A stretch of DNA of 64,000 bases, taken from Hyphomonas adhaerens MHS-3. Its GTDB lineage: Bacteria; Pseudomonadota; Alphaproteobacteria; Caulobacterales; Hyphomonadaceae. Positions 25,311 to 32,797 of the stretch are shown piece by piece (the first letter of the stretch is position 1; each line of letters opens with the position of its first letter). The stretch is from NCBI RefSeq assembly GCF_000685235.1, contig NZ_ARYH01000001.1, positions 310,001 to 374,000 on the forward strand, in the 5' to 3' direction. Made by a program: the position numbers and the translations under genes. Below the pieces are notes generated by a model. It saw only the letters and a program-made list of their open reading frames with translations, had not been told where the DNA came from and did not search any database.

Positions 25311-26525
25311 ATGGACCGCGTTCTCATCATCGGTGCCGGCGCTGCCGGTTCGGTCGTCGCCCAGAAATGCGCGATGGACCGTGACACGTTCAAGCACATC
25401 ACCCTCGCCTCGCGCCGCATCGAAAGCTGCGAGAACGTGGCAAAGCTCTGCAAGACGCCGATCGAGATCGCCCAGGTCGATGCCGACAATGTGCCGGAAG
25501 TCGTCGCCCTCATCGAAAAGGTGAAGCCGGACCTGCTGATCAACATGGCCCTGCCCTATCAGGACCTGCCGATCATGGATGCCTGCCTCGAAACGGGCTG
25601 CAACTATATGGACACGGCGAACTATGAGCCGCGCGACGTGGCCAAGTTCGAATATCACTGGCAGTGGGCCTATCATGACCGCTTCAAGGAGAAGGGCATC
25701 ACCGCCATTCTCGGCTGCGGCTTCGACCCCGGCGTGACCAACGTCTACTGCGCCTACGCGCAGGAGCATCTGTTCGACGAGATCGAATATATCGACATTG
25801 TCGACTGCAATGCCGGCGACCACGGCAAGACGTTCGCGACGAACTTCAATCCGGAGATCAACCTCCGCGAAGTCACGCAGGACGGCAAATACTGGAAGAA
25901 TGGCGAATGGATCGAGATCCCCGCCCTCTCCATCAATTGCGACATCGACTATCCGGAAGTCGGCCCGAAGGATTCCTACCTCATCTATCACGAGGAAGAG
26001 GAAAGCCTGGTCAAGAACATCAAGGGCCTGAAGCAGATCCGCTTCTGGATGACCTTTGGCAGCGAATACATCAAGCATTTGCAGGTGTTCAAATCCATCG
26101 GCCTGATTGGCCTCGAACCGATCAAGCACAAGGGCATGGACATCATTCCGATGGAGTTCCTGAAAGACCTGCTGCCGCCGCCGTCGTCCCTTGCAGAAGG
26201 CTATACCGGCAAGACCAGCATCGGCGTGATCGTCCGTGGAAAGAAGGATGGCCAGCCGCTGACCAAGATGATCTACAATGTCTCCGACCATGCCGAGACC
26301 AACAAGGAAGTCTCCGCGCAGGCCGTCTCCTATACGACGGGCGTCCCGCCGGTGTCCGGCGCGGCCATGTTCTTCCGCGGCGAATGGGCCGGCAAGGGCG
26401 TGTTCAATGTCGAGCAATTCCCGGCCAAGCCCTTCCTCGACGACGTCGCCCAGCGCGGCCTGCCCTGGCACGTCATCGACGTGAACCCCGGCGATCAGGA
26501 AGAGCTCTTCGCGGTGGAAACCTAG
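25311..26525 (+). CDS. Carboxynorspermidine/carboxyspermidine dehydrogenase (LYS1-like saccharopine dehydrogenase family)
   Basis: A 404-residue NAD(P)-dependent enzyme. The nucleotide loop is IIGAGAAGSV (residues 5-14). Other signature stretches are LINMALPYQDL, ETGCNYMDTANYEPRD (about 95-110), ILGCGFDPGVTNVYCAYA (about 137-154) and SINCDIDYPEV. This matches carboxynorspermidine synthase, which condenses aspartate semialdehyde with a diamine. The cognate decarboxylase gene nspC follows at 28050 but is separated by two inserted genes. Together they give spermidine or norspermidine, depending on the diamine supplied. Confidence 0.88.
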   Translation: MDRVLIIGAGAAGSVVAQKCAMDRDTFKHITLASRRIESCENVAKLCKTPIEIAQVDADNVPEVVALIEKVKPDLLINMALPYQDLPIMDACLETGCNYMDTANYEPRDVAKFEYHWQWAYHDRFKEKGITAILGCGFDPGVTNVYCAYAQEHLFDEIEYIDIVDCNAGDHGKTFATNFNPEINLREVTQDGKYWKNGEWIEIPALSINCDIDYPEVGPKDSYLIYHEEEESLVKNIKGLKQIRFWMTFGSEYIKHLQVFKSIGLIGLEPIKHKGMDIIPMEFLKDLLPPPSSLAEGYTGKTSIGVIVRGKKDGQPLTKMIYNVSDHAETNKEVSAQAVSYTTGVPPVSGAAMFFRGEWAGKGVFNVEQFPAKPFLDDVAQRGLPWHVIDVNPGDQEELFAVET

Positions 26526-26550
26526 GGGAGCCTGATCGGGGGTGTTGAAA

Positions 26551-27291
26551 ATGCTAAAACATTTGAATTTTGCGGTGAAGCTCACAATCGGCGCAACCTG
26601 CCTGATGCTCCAAGCTTGCGCCACTGCCACTACTACTTATAACTCATCGAATTCTGACGCCCTACTTATACATTGGGCGAACAAGCATGAAATGGTCTTT
26701 GTTCCCGTAAACCTTCAATCGGGACAGGTTATTGGTAACAGTAAACTAGTTCTGAAGGACCGCGTTTCCGCCCCCCGCTTGTATTTCAAAGGGTCGAAAG
26801 AGGACAAAGCAACTGCAAGAGTGATGCTGGACAATGGGTGGGATGGCCGGGATACAATCGACTACGCAACAGCAACCGTTAAACCTGGGACATATGCTTT
26901 GGTATTCTCCGGTTATTGGTTTGATCCCGGAACGGGCTATATGGGAATATCGTCGGCGCATATGGTGAACTCATACTGCTTCACTGACAGGGCCGCCGTA
27001 TTCGAGTTCAAAGCTGGAACCATTAACACCCTTGAGAACTGGGCGCATCTGAAGCAGCGCGTCGAATCTGATTCGGGGCAAAAAAACAAGCTGACAGAAC
27101 AAAACGATGAACTAATTCGTCTTTTGCTAAAAGGCTACCCAGATCTGGAGGGCGAGGTTAAGAGCTCTCCAATTATTGCACTCATTGAATTCGATCAATC
27201 CGTACCAAGAGAATCCAATGGTTGCTACGGGTCAAACAGCTTTCATATCTTGCGGTTACCCCCAGCTACAGAAGTAGCCACCACACATTGA
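26551..27291 (+). CDS. Hypothetical lipoprotein, AT-rich, probably foreign
   Basis: A 246-residue protein from ATG 26551. A signal sequence ends in LMLQAC, a good lipobox with Cys about 22. The codon use and base composition are visibly AT-richer than the flanking genes (for example AAA, AAT, TTA and ATT are common), a mark of recent acquisition. I do not recognise a family; the mature part is beta-rich with six cysteines or fewer. The gene ends at TGA 27289-27291, exactly where similarity to the nspC 5' end begins. It therefore sits between the carboxynorspermidine dehydrogenase and a remnant of its partner. Confidence 0.6.
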   Translation: MLKHLNFAVKLTIGATCLMLQACATATTTYNSSNSDALLIHWANKHEMVFVPVNLQSGQVIGNSKLVLKDRVSAPRLYFKGSKEDKATARVMLDNGWDGRDTIDYATATVKPGTYALVFSGYWFDPGTGYMGISSAHMVNSYCFTDRAAVFEFKAGTINTLENWAHLKQRVESDSGQKNKLTEQNDELIRLLLKGYPDLEGEVKSSPIIALIEFDQSVPRESNGCYGSNSFHILRLPPATEVATTH

Positions 27292-27386
27292 CGCGCACTC
27301 ACATCCCCACCCCCGTTTTCGTCCTCGATGTTGCGCGTCTCCAGAAGAATATGGAAACAACGAAGCGCGTACGGGAGGAAGCCTTC
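27285..27386 (+). pseudogene. Diverged remnant of the nspC 5' end
   Basis: Bases 27285-27386 align with the start of the intact nspC at 28062 onwards: ACATTG, then CATCCCCAC.CCCGT.TTCGTCCTCGA and so on to CGGGAGGA.GC. I count about 14 differences in the best 84 bases, mostly third-position and transitions. The peptide IPTPVFVLDVARLQKN and TKRVREEA mirrors IPTPVFVLDVARLRKN and AKRVREEA of the intact gene. The ATG is replaced by CAC. The intact copy lies 780 bases downstream, so this is a partial duplicate or recombination scar. Confidence 0.75.
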
Positions 27387-27389
27387 GGC

Positions 27390-28049
27390 ATGCGCCGCGC
27401 TGCCGTCTCGCTTCTTGCTGCACTGACCTTCGCTGCGTGCAGCGAGGAAGCCGCTGCGCCCCAGGGACCGCTCGTCTTCGAGAAGGCCATCGACTATGCC
27501 GCCTTCCAGCCGATCGAAGGCTGCACGGGCGAGCGGGCGAAGCCGACCTATTTCAAATGCCTCGATGCGCAGCAGCTGTACGATGCGGCCTTCAACCAGG
27601 CCAGGGAAGACGGCCGCCCCCTGATGATCGTCTGGGGCTTTGACGAATGCCCCTCCTGCATGAAGCTGGAGAAGACCGAACTGTCCGGCAGGAAAGCCTG
27701 GACGGTGGACCGTTTCCTTAAGGACGCGCTGACGCCCGCCCAGCGTGACGCCGCCCTCGCCAGTCAGGACGATTACCGCATCCTGACCCTGAAGATCGAC
27801 ATACGCCGCCCGAGTGGTGAGGCCCTAGCGGACAAGATCGGTGTCACCCGCATCTCGCGTGAACGCGGACATGATCGCGTGCGGACGCCGTTCATCACGC
27901 TCACCAACGCGGAAACCGGCGCACTCGTCTCGCAGGCGGAACTGGGTGAGGGCTTCCGGCCATGCACCCGCGAAGATGAATTCGTTCTCAATCTCGTCGA
28001 GGCCGGTTTCCTTCCGGACGATCCCTCGCGTGACCGCCGAATGTGCTAG
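27390..28049 (+). CDS. Thioredoxin-like lipoprotein
   Basis: A 219-residue protein from ATG 27390. The signal sequence has a lipobox ending FAAC (Cys about 18). A thioredoxin-type CXXC is present as CPSC in the context IVWGFDECPSCMKLEKTEL, with a Trp before it, and the downstream fold with a DDYRILTLKIDIR strand fits. It probably acts in the periplasm on disulphides. Its ribosome site GGGAGGA is provided by the nspC remnant. The reading frame runs in phase through the remnant, so an N-terminal fusion read-through is possible. The stop (TAG 28047-28049) is directly followed by the nspC ATG. Confidence 0.65.
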   Translation: MRRAAVSLLAALTFAACSEEAAAPQGPLVFEKAIDYAAFQPIEGCTGERAKPTYFKCLDAQQLYDAAFNQAREDGRPLMIVWGFDECPSCMKLEKTELSGRKAWTVDRFLKDALTPAQRDAALASQDDYRILTLKIDIRRPSGEALADKIGVTRISRERGHDRVRTPFITLTNAETGALVSQAELGEGFRPCTREDEFVLNLVEAGFLPDDPSRDRRMC

Positions 28050-29198
28050 ATGGGACACGCCATGACATTGCCCGCCGACATCCCCACGCCCGTCTTCGTC
28101 CTCGACGTCGCGCGCCTCCGGAAGAATCTGGAGACGGCGAAGCGTGTGCGGGAGGAGGCTGGCTGCAAAGTGCTGCTCGCCACCAAGGCCTTTGCCATGC
28201 CGGCGGCCTTCCCGGTGATGACCGACTATCTCGACGGCACGACGGCCAGCGGCGAGCATGAAGCCATCATGGGCAAGGACTCCTTCGGCAAGGAAGTGCA
28301 TGTCTACTCCCCGGCCTACACCGAAGAGACGGTCCGTAACCTGACGAAGATTGCAGGCCATATCTATTTCAACAGCGCTGCACAGCTTGACCGCTTTGGC
28401 GACATCGCCCGCGATGCGGGCGCCCATGTCGGCCTGCGCGTCAATCCCGGCTACTCGAACGCCACCCTCGGCGGCGATCTCTACAACCCGACCGCGCCGA
28501 TGAGCCGGTTCGGCGAAGTCCCGGCGAAGCTGGACAGCGTGGACTGGTCCGGCATCGACATCTTCCACGTTCACGCCCTCTGCGAGAGCCTGCACGAGGG
28601 CTCGGTTGGCCTGATCAACCACGTCGCCGACAATTTCGGACAATATATCGAACAGGTCTCCGCCGTGAATTTCGGCGGCGGGCATTTCCTGAACAAGCCG
28701 GGCTATGATGTCAGCGCGCTGATTGACGCCATCAAGGCCTTCAAGGCGCGCTTCGGCGTCGAGGTCATCCTCGAGCCCGGCGGCGGCCTCGTCGTCAATA
28801 CCGGCGAACTCCATGCCTCCGTTCTGGACCTGCACTGGAACGAGATGGACCTCGCCATCCTCGACGCCTCCGCCTCCACCCACATGCCGGACGTTCTGGA
28901 AGTTCCCTACCGGCCGGACGTCATCGGCGCAGGCCAGCCCGGCGAGAAGGCGCACACCTACCGGTTCGGTGGCAACACCTGCATGACCGGCGATGTGATC
29001 GGCGACTATTCCTTCGACGCCCCGCTAAAGCCCGGCGATCAGGTGATCTTCACCGACCAGATGCACTACAGCTTCGTGAAGACGAACACGTTCAACGGCA
29101 CGCCGCTGGCCAATCTCGCCATCCGCTGGGAAGACGGCCGTGTCGAACAGATCAGCGATTTCGGATACGAGGAATTCCGGCGCCGCCTCGGGCGCTAG
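28050..29198 (+). CDS. nspC: Carboxynorspermidine decarboxylase
   Basis: A 382-residue PLP enzyme (or 378 from ATG 28062, which starts MTLPAD). It decarboxylates carboxy(nor)spermidine to (nor)spermidine. The PLP lysine is in LLATKAFAM (about residue 47). HVHALCESL (about 170-178), NFGGGHFLNKPGYD and the C-terminal CMTGDVIGDYSF with the catalytic Cys and Asp match the family. A terminator-like hairpin follows. The ATG at 28050 directly follows the TAG of the thioredoxin-like gene. The 28062 ATG also lacks a strong ribosome site, so the exact start is open. Confidence 0.9.
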   Translation: MGHAMTLPADIPTPVFVLDVARLRKNLETAKRVREEAGCKVLLATKAFAMPAAFPVMTDYLDGTTASGEHEAIMGKDSFGKEVHVYSPAYTEETVRNLTKIAGHIYFNSAAQLDRFGDIARDAGAHVGLRVNPGYSNATLGGDLYNPTAPMSRFGEVPAKLDSVDWSGIDIFHVHALCESLHEGSVGLINHVADNFGQYIEQVSAVNFGGGHFLNKPGYDVSALIDAIKAFKARFGVEVILEPGGGLVVNTGELHASVLDLHWNEMDLAILDASASTHMPDVLEVPYRPDVIGAGQPGEKAHTYRFGGNTCMTGDVIGDYSFDAPLKPGDQVIFTDQMHYSFVKTNTFNGTPLANLAIRWEDGRVEQISDFGYEEFRRRLGR

Positions 29199-30895: not shown

Positions 30896-31537
30896 ATGAG
30901 CCAGTCCAAGACCTCCACCCGCCCGATATGGGATCCCCTTGTCCGCATCGGGCACTGGACGCTCGTGATCGCGTTTTTCACCGCCTACCTGTCTGGCGAC
31001 GATCTGTTCAACATCCACAAATGGGCCGGCTATGTGGTGGCCGGTTATGTGCTGGTCCGCATCGTCTGGGGTCTCATCGGCACGCGGCACGCGCGGTTCA
31101 CCAATTTCGTCCGCGGCCCCGGCGCCGTCCTCGGATATCTGCGCGGTCTCTTCACGGGCCATGTGAAGGATTATGCCGGGCACAACCCCGCAGGCGGGGC
31201 CATGGTCGTGGCCCTGCTTTTCAGCCTTCTCGTCACAACCGGGTCCGGCATGGCGCTCTACGCCGTGGAGGACAATGCCGGCCCGCTGGCCGGGATCGTG
31301 ACCGAGGAAACCTTCGCGCCGATGGCCTCAGCCTTCGGAGAAGAAGGCGAGCATGGGCGCGATGAGGAATCCGGCGCAGAGGAATTGCTCGAAGGCGTGC
31401 ACAAGGCGTTCGTCTACATCACGCTCGCCCTGATCGGAATCCACCTTGCCGGGGTCGTCGCCTCAAGCCTCGCCCACAAGCAAAACCTCGCCCGCGCCAT
31501 GGTCACCGGCCGCAAACCGGAGACTGACGAGCGCTGA
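30896..31537 (+). CDS. Cytochrome b561-like diheme membrane protein
   Basis: A 213-residue protein with four hydrophobic helices. The conserved histidines of bacterial cytochrome b561/Ni-Fe hydrogenase b-type family are in RIGHWTLVIAFFTAYL (about residue 18), NIHKWAGYVVAGYVL (about 42) and ALIGIHLAGVV (about 183). It shuttles electrons between the quinone pool and an acceptor. There are no partner genes beside it. It is divergent from the LuxR-like gene and is followed by a bidirectional terminator. Confidence 0.82.
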   Translation: MSQSKTSTRPIWDPLVRIGHWTLVIAFFTAYLSGDDLFNIHKWAGYVVAGYVLVRIVWGLIGTRHARFTNFVRGPGAVLGYLRGLFTGHVKDYAGHNPAGGAMVVALLFSLLVTTGSGMALYAVEDNAGPLAGIVTEETFAPMASAFGEEGEHGRDEESGAEELLEGVHKAFVYITLALIGIHLAGVVASSLAHKQNLARAMVTGRKPETDER

Positions 31538-31550
31538 TCCACGCTGGAAC

Positions 31551-31587
31551 AAAAAAAAGGCCGGGCGCAAAAGGCCCGGCCGCTTTA
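31551..31587. terminator. Bidirectional terminator between cytochrome b561 and argD
   Basis: GGCCGGGC (31559-31566) and GCCCGGCC (31574-31581) form an 8-bp stem. A run of eight A at 31551-31558 gives a U tract for the minus strand (argD). CTTTATT after the stem serves the plus strand (cytochrome gene). Confidence 0.85.
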
Positions 31588-31606
31588 TTCTATCAAACCG
31601 AGGGCC

Positions 31607-32797
31607 TCAGGCCGGATCCCAGTCGCCGATCGCTTCGTCCATCACGCGGGTCGCCTCGCGGACGTTCTCGTCCGTGATCACCAGCGGCGGCGCAAGACGC
31701 AGGACATTGTTGCCCGCGACACCGACCAGAAGGTTCTTGTCGCGGCAGACGCCCTGCAGGCCTTTCGGATCGCCTTTCATTTTCAGGCCGGTCAGCAGGC
31801 CCTTGCCAGTCACGCCTTCGACCTTGTCCGGGTGGCTGTCGGCGATGCTCTTCAGGCTCTGCGCAACCGTACCGGAGACGCGGCGCACTTCGGCCAGGAA
31901 AGCCTCATCGGAGATGATGTCCCAGACGACATTGCCGACGGCCATGGCCAGCGGGTTGCCGCCATAGGTCGAGCCATGGCTGCCCGGCTGCATGTGCTCG
32001 CCGCAGGCCTCGGTCGTCAGGCAGGCGCCGAACGGGAAGCCGCCGCCGATGCCTTTCGCCGAACACAGAATGTCCGGCGTGGCGCCCTCGGCCCATTCAT
32101 GGGCGAACAGCTTGCCGGTGCGGCCCATGCCGCACTGGACTTCGTCATAGATCAGCAGAACGCCATGTTCATCGCACAGCTCACGGAAGCGTTTCAGGTC
32201 TTCCTCCGGCAGGGCGCGCACGCCGCCTTCGCCCTGCACCGGCTCGATCAGGACAGCGGCCGCAGTCGGGCGGGCGATGGCGTCTTCAAGGGCAGCCATG
32301 TCGCCCCATTCGAGATGCACGAAACCAGGCAGCGCCGGGCCGAAGCCTTCGAGGTATTTCGGATTGCCGCCAGCATTGATCGCCCCGATGGAGCGGCCAT
32401 GGAAGGCACCCGTGAAGGTGATGATGTCGATCCGGTCTTCATGACCGTTGGCCCACTGATACTTGCGGGCCGACTTGATCGCGCACTCGATCGCTTCGGT
32501 GCCGGAATTGGTGAAGAAGACGCGGTCTGCAAACGTGTCACGGCAGATCTTGTCGGCCAGCTCTTCCGCCCCGCGCACACGGAACATGTTCGACGTGTGC
32601 CACAGCTTGCCCGCCTGCTCGCGCAGGGCGTCCACCATGGCCGGGTGCGAATGGCCGAGCGCATTGACCGCGATGCCAGCGATGAAATCCAGATATCGCG
32701 TACCGTCTTCGGTGAAGAGGTAGACGCCCTCTCCTTTCTCGAAAACCTGTTCCGGCGGCCGGTAGACCGGCATGATATGCTGGCGGGGATCGCTCAT
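31607..32797 (-). CDS. argD: Acetylornithine aminotransferase
   Basis: A 396-residue class III PLP aminotransferase that converts N-acetylglutamate semialdehyde to N-acetylornithine in arginine synthesis. The PLP Asp is in LLIYDEVQCGMGRTGKLFAHEW (about residue 217) and the PLP Lys in CSAKGIGGGFPFGACL (about 246). The start MSDPRQHIMPVYRPPEQVFEKGEG and the block FHGRSIGAINAGG are typical. It ends at the bidirectional terminator. A role in succinylornithine metabolism is also possible for related enzymes. Confidence 0.93.
   Translation of the reverse strand: MSDPRQHIMPVYRPPEQVFEKGEGVYLFTEDGTRYLDFIAGIAVNALGHSHPAMVDALREQAGKLWHTSNMFRVRGAEELADKICRDTFADRVFFTNSGTEAIECAIKSARKYQWANGHEDRIDIITFTGAFHGRSIGAINAGGNPKYLEGFGPALPGFVHLEWGDMAALEDAIARPTAAAVLIEPVQGEGGVRALPEEDLKRFRELCDEHGVLLIYDEVQCGMGRTGKLFAHEWAEGATPDILCSAKGIGGGFPFGACLTTEACGEHMQPGSHGSTYGGNPLAMAVGNVVWDIISDEAFLAEVRRVSGTVAQSLKSIADSHPDKVEGVTGKGLLTGLKMKGDPKGLQGVCRDKNLLVGVAGNNVLRLAPPLVITDENVREATRVMDEAIGDWDPA

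Follow-up and report, generated by a model that had tools for sequence, protein, structure and literature searches.

An orphan nspC start between two polyamine genes of Hyphomonas adhaerens suggests an illegitimate splice of two versions of one locus

In the 64,000-nucleotide stretch of Hyphomonas adhaerens MHS-3 DNA analyzed here (the window), the beginning of a second nspC gene lies stranded between the two polyamine genes, which encode carboxynorspermidine dehydrogenase and carboxynorspermidine decarboxylase (Table 1). We consider it probable that two versions of one locus were spliced here by a single illegitimate crossover. One version, haplotype 1, would have had the order dehydrogenase, AT-rich lipoprotein, nspC, and the other, haplotype 2, the order dehydrogenase, thioredoxin-like gene, nspC, like five relatives. 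The product would follow haplotype 1 as far as nspC codon 37 and then switch to haplotype 2 at the point where the dehydrogenase gene of that version ended, and the orphan nspC start would be the leftover of the nspC gene of haplotype 1. This is a known kind of event, and its scar is unusually legible.

Table 1. Features of the dehydrogenase-nspC locus in the window
Feature	Coordinates	Strand	Remarks
Carboxynorspermidine/carboxyspermidine dehydrogenase	25311..26525	+	Left conserved flank; PF16653 and PF03435
AT-rich lipoprotein-like ORF	26542..27291	+	ATG 26551 is the likelier start; unique in the genus; assigned to haplotype 1
nspC 5′ remnant	27288..27383	+	TTG start overlaps the lipoprotein stop (TTGA); codons match nspC 11-37
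Putative illegitimate joint	27376..27389	+	GGAAGCC of the nspC remnant at the place of the relatives' dehydrogenase end (GGAAACC TGA), before the thioredoxin-like ATG
Thioredoxin-like lipoprotein	27390..28049	+	PF13899; fills the slot in haplotype 2; shares the reading frame of the remnant; start ATG 27390, 219 aa, matching the relatives' length
nspC, carboxynorspermidine decarboxylase	28050..29198	+	Right conserved flank

The best NCBIfam match of the dehydrogenase was NF043000, at 410 bits under its 800-bit cutoff, and nspC scored 417.7 bits against TIGR01047, over the cutoff of 409.05. The AT-rich lipoprotein matched no Pfam or NCBIfam family, and its GC3 is 50.4%, versus 84% in the dehydrogenase gene and nspC. 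A single-sequence structure model of this protein was discarded (pLDDT of 34.5).

A repeat search paired positions 27301-27382 with 28078-28159 (82 nt, 84% identical, spacing of 777), and nspC genes searched by blastn against the dehydrogenase-nspC gap hit the remnant at an E value of 1e-19. The resemblance is more than chance, and a first-pass annotation of this DNA, which had reported a diverged nspC start upstream of the intact gene, is confirmed on this point. Across the aligned codons (remnant positions 27303-27383), 14 of 81 nucleotides differ (67/81 identical); 11 of these differences fall at third positions, and 3 of 27 residues are changed. Under random mutation about nine residue changes would be expected, and three or fewer arise from 14 mutations with a P value of 5e-5 to 4.5e-4 (20,000 simulated sets). 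Because the 14 nucleotide differences alter just three residues, the remnant and nspC must have diverged while both were selected as working genes. Since this divergence is mostly silent, a recent local copy that then decayed is unlikely, as the annotation had also argued.

The 5′ part of the remnant reads TTG ACG CGC ACT CAC. An overlap of stop and start of the TTGA type is typical of coupled genes, and TTG 27288 is a plausible native start of the remnant. As the remnant start overlaps the lipoprotein stop in this manner, we infer that nspC lay directly 3′ of the lipoprotein gene in the source genome; the idea that the remnant is the nspC start of a dehydrogenase-lipoprotein-nspC arrangement is thus supported. 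The remnant is about equidistant from every nspC gene (best, 68/81; local nspC, 67/81) and indicates no donor lineage.

We compared the locus across 42 Hyphomonas genomes, which included the window genome (G000) and records of H. jannaschiana, H. beringensis, and H. pacifica. A full nspC gene was present in 39 of the 42, with weak distant matches only in G016, G017, and G025; the dehydrogenase-nspC gap was readable in 38 (in G035 it stops at a contig edge). The two polyamine genes had been described as usually adjacent, which did not hold in this genus: they directly abut in just 3 of the 38 genomes (G011, G027, and G030). The arrangement of the window occurs in 1 of the 38, the window genome itself, which excludes the case of an arrangement common to all relatives. 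The thioredoxin-like gene occupies the gap in the window genome and in G024, G004, G040, G020, and G019, starting 4 to 5 nt past the dehydrogenase stop in these five relatives, of which G024 is an early branch of the subclade. Strong matches to this gene are limited to 6 of the 42 genomes, and 4 more have weak matches elsewhere. Of the 42 genomes, the window genome alone carries the AT-rich lipoprotein. The sister species by rpoB (G039; the tree is of one gene and covers 30 of the 42 genomes) has neither the thioredoxin-like gene nor the lipoprotein. Five Henriciella loci (L063, L064, L066, L067, and L072) carry thioredoxin-like homologues (34 to 40% identity) with the same two flanking genes; some of these gaps also hold VOC-like, ArsR-like, enoyl-CoA-hydratase-like, and GNAT-like genes.

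In the five relatives with the thioredoxin-like gene, the dehydrogenase end is GTGGAAACCTGA, with the thioredoxin-like ATG directly after it; in the window, the remnant (GAGGAAGCC) is followed by TTCGGC and then by the ATG. The remnant thus occupies the position that a dehydrogenase end has in these relatives. GGAAGCCT and GGAAACCT agree at 7 of 8 bases (P of about 4e-4 to 6e-4 in one register, uncorrected for neighboring registers), a match computed with two of the five relatives and with proxies for the parental sequences; to the eye, the dehydrogenase ends of all five look the same.

A second scar, independent of that in the window and of the same design, is present in H. beringensis (G002, locus L044). 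The order there is dehydrogenase, small membrane ORF, nspC fragment, dehydrogenase fragment, thioesterase-like gene, and nspC. The nspC fragment (L044 positions 413-517) has a frame broken near its start, the internal dehydrogenase piece (510-594) is 92% identical to H. pacifica, and the thioesterase-like gene is the gap filler in H. pacifica. At the joint, the two pieces overlap by CACCAAGG, a run of 7 to 8 nt (P of about 3e-4 to 8e-4 in one register, likewise uncorrected). The internal dehydrogenase piece at this joint is direct evidence that the right-hand haplotype began inside the dehydrogenase gene. The left haplotype runs to about nspC codon 46 in H. beringensis and to codon 37 in the window, and the right haplotype takes over from the 3′ region of the dehydrogenase gene. 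Among 49 distinct gap sequences, searched where the gap exceeded about 70 bases, only those of the window and H. beringensis hold nspC fragments, and a whole-genome search of the 42 genomes for an extra nspC start returned the same two alone. An antisense 39-nt dehydrogenase match in L063 was taken as chance.

The probable route would be import from another Hyphomonas with a homology anchor in the dehydrogenase gene, the other end of the incoming DNA being joined at short microhomology, that is, homology-facilitated illegitimate recombination. Nonhomologous DNA (the lipoprotein gene, which the other 41 genus genomes lack) adjoins a homologous anchor (the dehydrogenase gene), and the locus likely belongs to the products of this process. 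The dehydrogenase gene of the window is near that of the sister G039 throughout (90 to 98%), and sliding identity along it gave no clear foreign tract marking the left crossover. The genome encodes members of the ComEC and DprA families; both are common, occurring in 10 and 11 of 14 control genomes, respectively, and not diagnostic of competence. A search for a donor with the AT-rich gene beside nspC, as had been proposed, found none among 42 genus, 385 class, and 398 order genomes, plasmids, phages, and viral contigs. The best outside matches were weak (E of about 1e-3; G082 and G610, with lipoprotein-like ORFs at L086 and L119). The lipoprotein segment had no match in plasmids or phages, and viral contigs yielded two short 53% segments and nothing more. 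No paper in the literature searched joins "carboxynorspermidine" with "Hyphomonas," and the part of PMC11999265 considered here holds no operon passage on the two polyamine genes.

The remnant is best explained by recombination with a foreign version. Because the lipoprotein gene is unique and has a GC content of 47.5%, versus 63.1% for the whole window, we favor, by a modest preference, the lipoprotein and the remnant as the newcomer rather than the thioredoxin-nspC piece. The earlier claim that the whole block entered by recombination is thus partly supported, for the foreign-looking lipoprotein and the remnant but not for the thioredoxin-like gene, which has the same place in five relatives. 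The events could also have run in the reverse order, with the lineage first having dehydrogenase-lipoprotein-nspC and receiving a thioredoxin-nspC piece from a relative later; homologous exchange at the right end would then have replaced nspC, with the left end joined illegitimately inside the old nspC. This order is a subcase of the splice proposed above and is included in the probability that we give to that explanation; on balance it seems unlikely to us. It would sit well with the thioredoxin-like gene of the window, which is 87.2% identical to that of G040, compared with 87.8% for the G004 copy; rpoB nevertheless sets G004 nearer to G040 (94.5) than the window genome (91.6). That the window copy is nearly as close to G040 as that of G004 argues for some exchange of the thioredoxin-like gene, too. 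Likewise, over its first 81 nt, the nspC of the window differs less from G040, G020, and G019 (6 to 8 differences) than from the sister G039 (10 differences); G011, G013, and G004 also have 10 differences from the window. The presence of the thioredoxin-like gene in the slot of six species, including the early-branching G024, tells against the reverse order, however, as does the lipoprotein, unique and compositionally foreign. Over nucleotides 75 to 225, moreover, the nspC of the window groups with those of G039 and G040, as if this lineage had exported the tract to G040.

Three further explanations dispense with a splice of two haplotypes. That the nspC 5′ end was duplicated locally in this lineage and then decayed is improbable: the three residue changes seen are well below the nine or so that decay would give, and neither the foreign lipoprotein gene, whose stop overlaps a start codon, nor the dehydrogenase fragment in H. 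beringensis would be explained. In its favor, the remnant matches no outside donor clearly better than it matches the local gene. A mobile element that carried in the lipoprotein and left the repeat as a target duplication would suit an AT-rich, genus-unique gene. Such a duplication would be identical, however, and the repeat is 17% diverged (83 to 84% identical); no inverted repeats bracket the segment, and the plasmid, phage, and viral contig searches described above also weigh against an element, which we find hardly credible. It had further been proposed that the remnant supplies the ribosome site of the thioredoxin-like gene. A Shine-Dalgarno-like GGGAGGA from the remnant lies 10 bases 5′ of the thioredoxin-like ATG and adjoins the joint, with a predicted pairing of −10.3 kcal/mol in the window versus −5.1 kcal/mol in all five relatives, and the proposal is plausible rather than proven. 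To regard the remnant as an old functional element, kept as a translational leader of the thioredoxin-like gene, goes further. The stronger predicted pairing agrees with it, and the remnant has an open frame, the same as that of the ATG; yet the remnant is absent from the other five genomes carrying the gene, GGGAGGA is plain nspC coding sequence, and selection cannot be shown from one genome. We consider a leader of this kind very improbable.

The splice of two haplotypes took place, by our reading, in a gap of changing content. Across the 38 genomes, the dehydrogenase-nspC gap measures 0.02 to 2.2 kb and contains thioredoxin-like, thioesterase-like, or sulfotransferase-like genes, several small membrane ORFs, an opposite-strand GNAT-like gene, hairpin repeats alone, or nothing (slot gene names beyond the profile-matched ones are readings of translations). 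When junctions between neighboring conserved genes of the window were ranked by length states in up to 13 other genomes (junctions with at least 7 genomes), this gap ranked 1 of 53, with 7 length states in 14 genomes, a rank to be read in light of the fact that the locus was picked beforehand and has data from more genomes than most, and that all control junctions come from this 64-kb window. The next same-strand junction had 4 length states, and 30 of the 53 had a single state. Within the window's own subclade, the gap had 5 states and was tied with junction 31537-31607. The right flank may also have been exchanged, to judge from nspC identities. In G040 (L007), nspC nucleotides 1 to 225 are 93.3% identical to those of G000 and G039, compared with 86.2% for G020 and 85.8% for G019, whereas the remainder is 93 to 94% identical to its sisters G020 and G019 and about 81 to 84% identical to G000 and G039. 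The nspC gene of G041 has a similar tract with G024, and the nspC 5′ ends appear to be mosaic.

These observations fit a gene-turnover hotspot where homology-facilitated illegitimate recombination acted. We also entertain, tentatively and with the balance against it, a genus-wide exchange slot in which the flanking genes serve as matched recombination arms, with crossing over at the 3′ end of the dehydrogenase gene and at the 5′ end of nspC. Unrelated cargo would be traded between species through such arms, and a misaligned arm would produce haplotypes in tandem and the signature of a leftover nspC start. If this is true, failed exchanges could be counted in genomes via leftover nspC starts.

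Homology-facilitated illegitimate recombination has reportedly been worked on in Acinetobacter, Pneumococcus, and P. stutzeri. Core-gene-flanked hotspots, for their part, are usually inferred via gene presence and absence. The two independent scars keep the misjoined product itself, including pieces of the flanking genes, and would make a route of interspecies exchange readable from sequence. The locus also shows that a two-gene polyamine pathway unit tolerates repeated exchange of cargo between its genes. In E. coli conjugation, homology-facilitated illegitimate recombination has been described (PMC3240628); as in the part of that paper considered, foreign DNA would have entered beside a homologous anchor and been joined illegitimately at the other side, but here the event is read from sequence scars and the incoming DNA is homologous at both ends. 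As far as the parts of the two papers considered go, the closest patterns are the displacement proposed for Vibrio type VI secretion system (T6SS) modules (PMC5361080) and hotspots exchanged through flanking core genes (PMC5635113). For the Vibrio T6SS effector-immunity modules, sequential displacement by the same mechanism has been proposed, and old slot genes or fragments remain there, too, as new modules enter beside a conserved anchor (PMC5361080, in the part considered); in contrast, the cargo here consists of unrelated small genes with no effector-immunity pairs, and two haplotypes stand in tandem. The gene-turnover hotspots exchanged through recombination in flanking core genes, as presented in the part of PMC5635113 considered, share with our locus the high turnover between conserved genes, signs of recombination in a flank, and, in the window slot, no mobile element seen; unlike them, the slot of 0.02 to 2.2 kb lies inside a two-gene pathway and was compared across species, not strains.

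Several minor observations accompany these results. Junction 31537-31607 is the second most variable in the window, its length (0.07 to 2.1 kb) falling into 5 states among 8 genomes. The gaps of L052, L045, L046, L048, L050, and L053 hold only a palindromic repeat (e.g., of the CCCGCGAAGGCGGGG type), which occurs in several versions. L045, L046, L050, and L051 are Hyphomonas-type loci (85 to 86% nspC) filed under Acidobacteria/Candidatus Sulfopaludibacter titles, and these titles look wrong.
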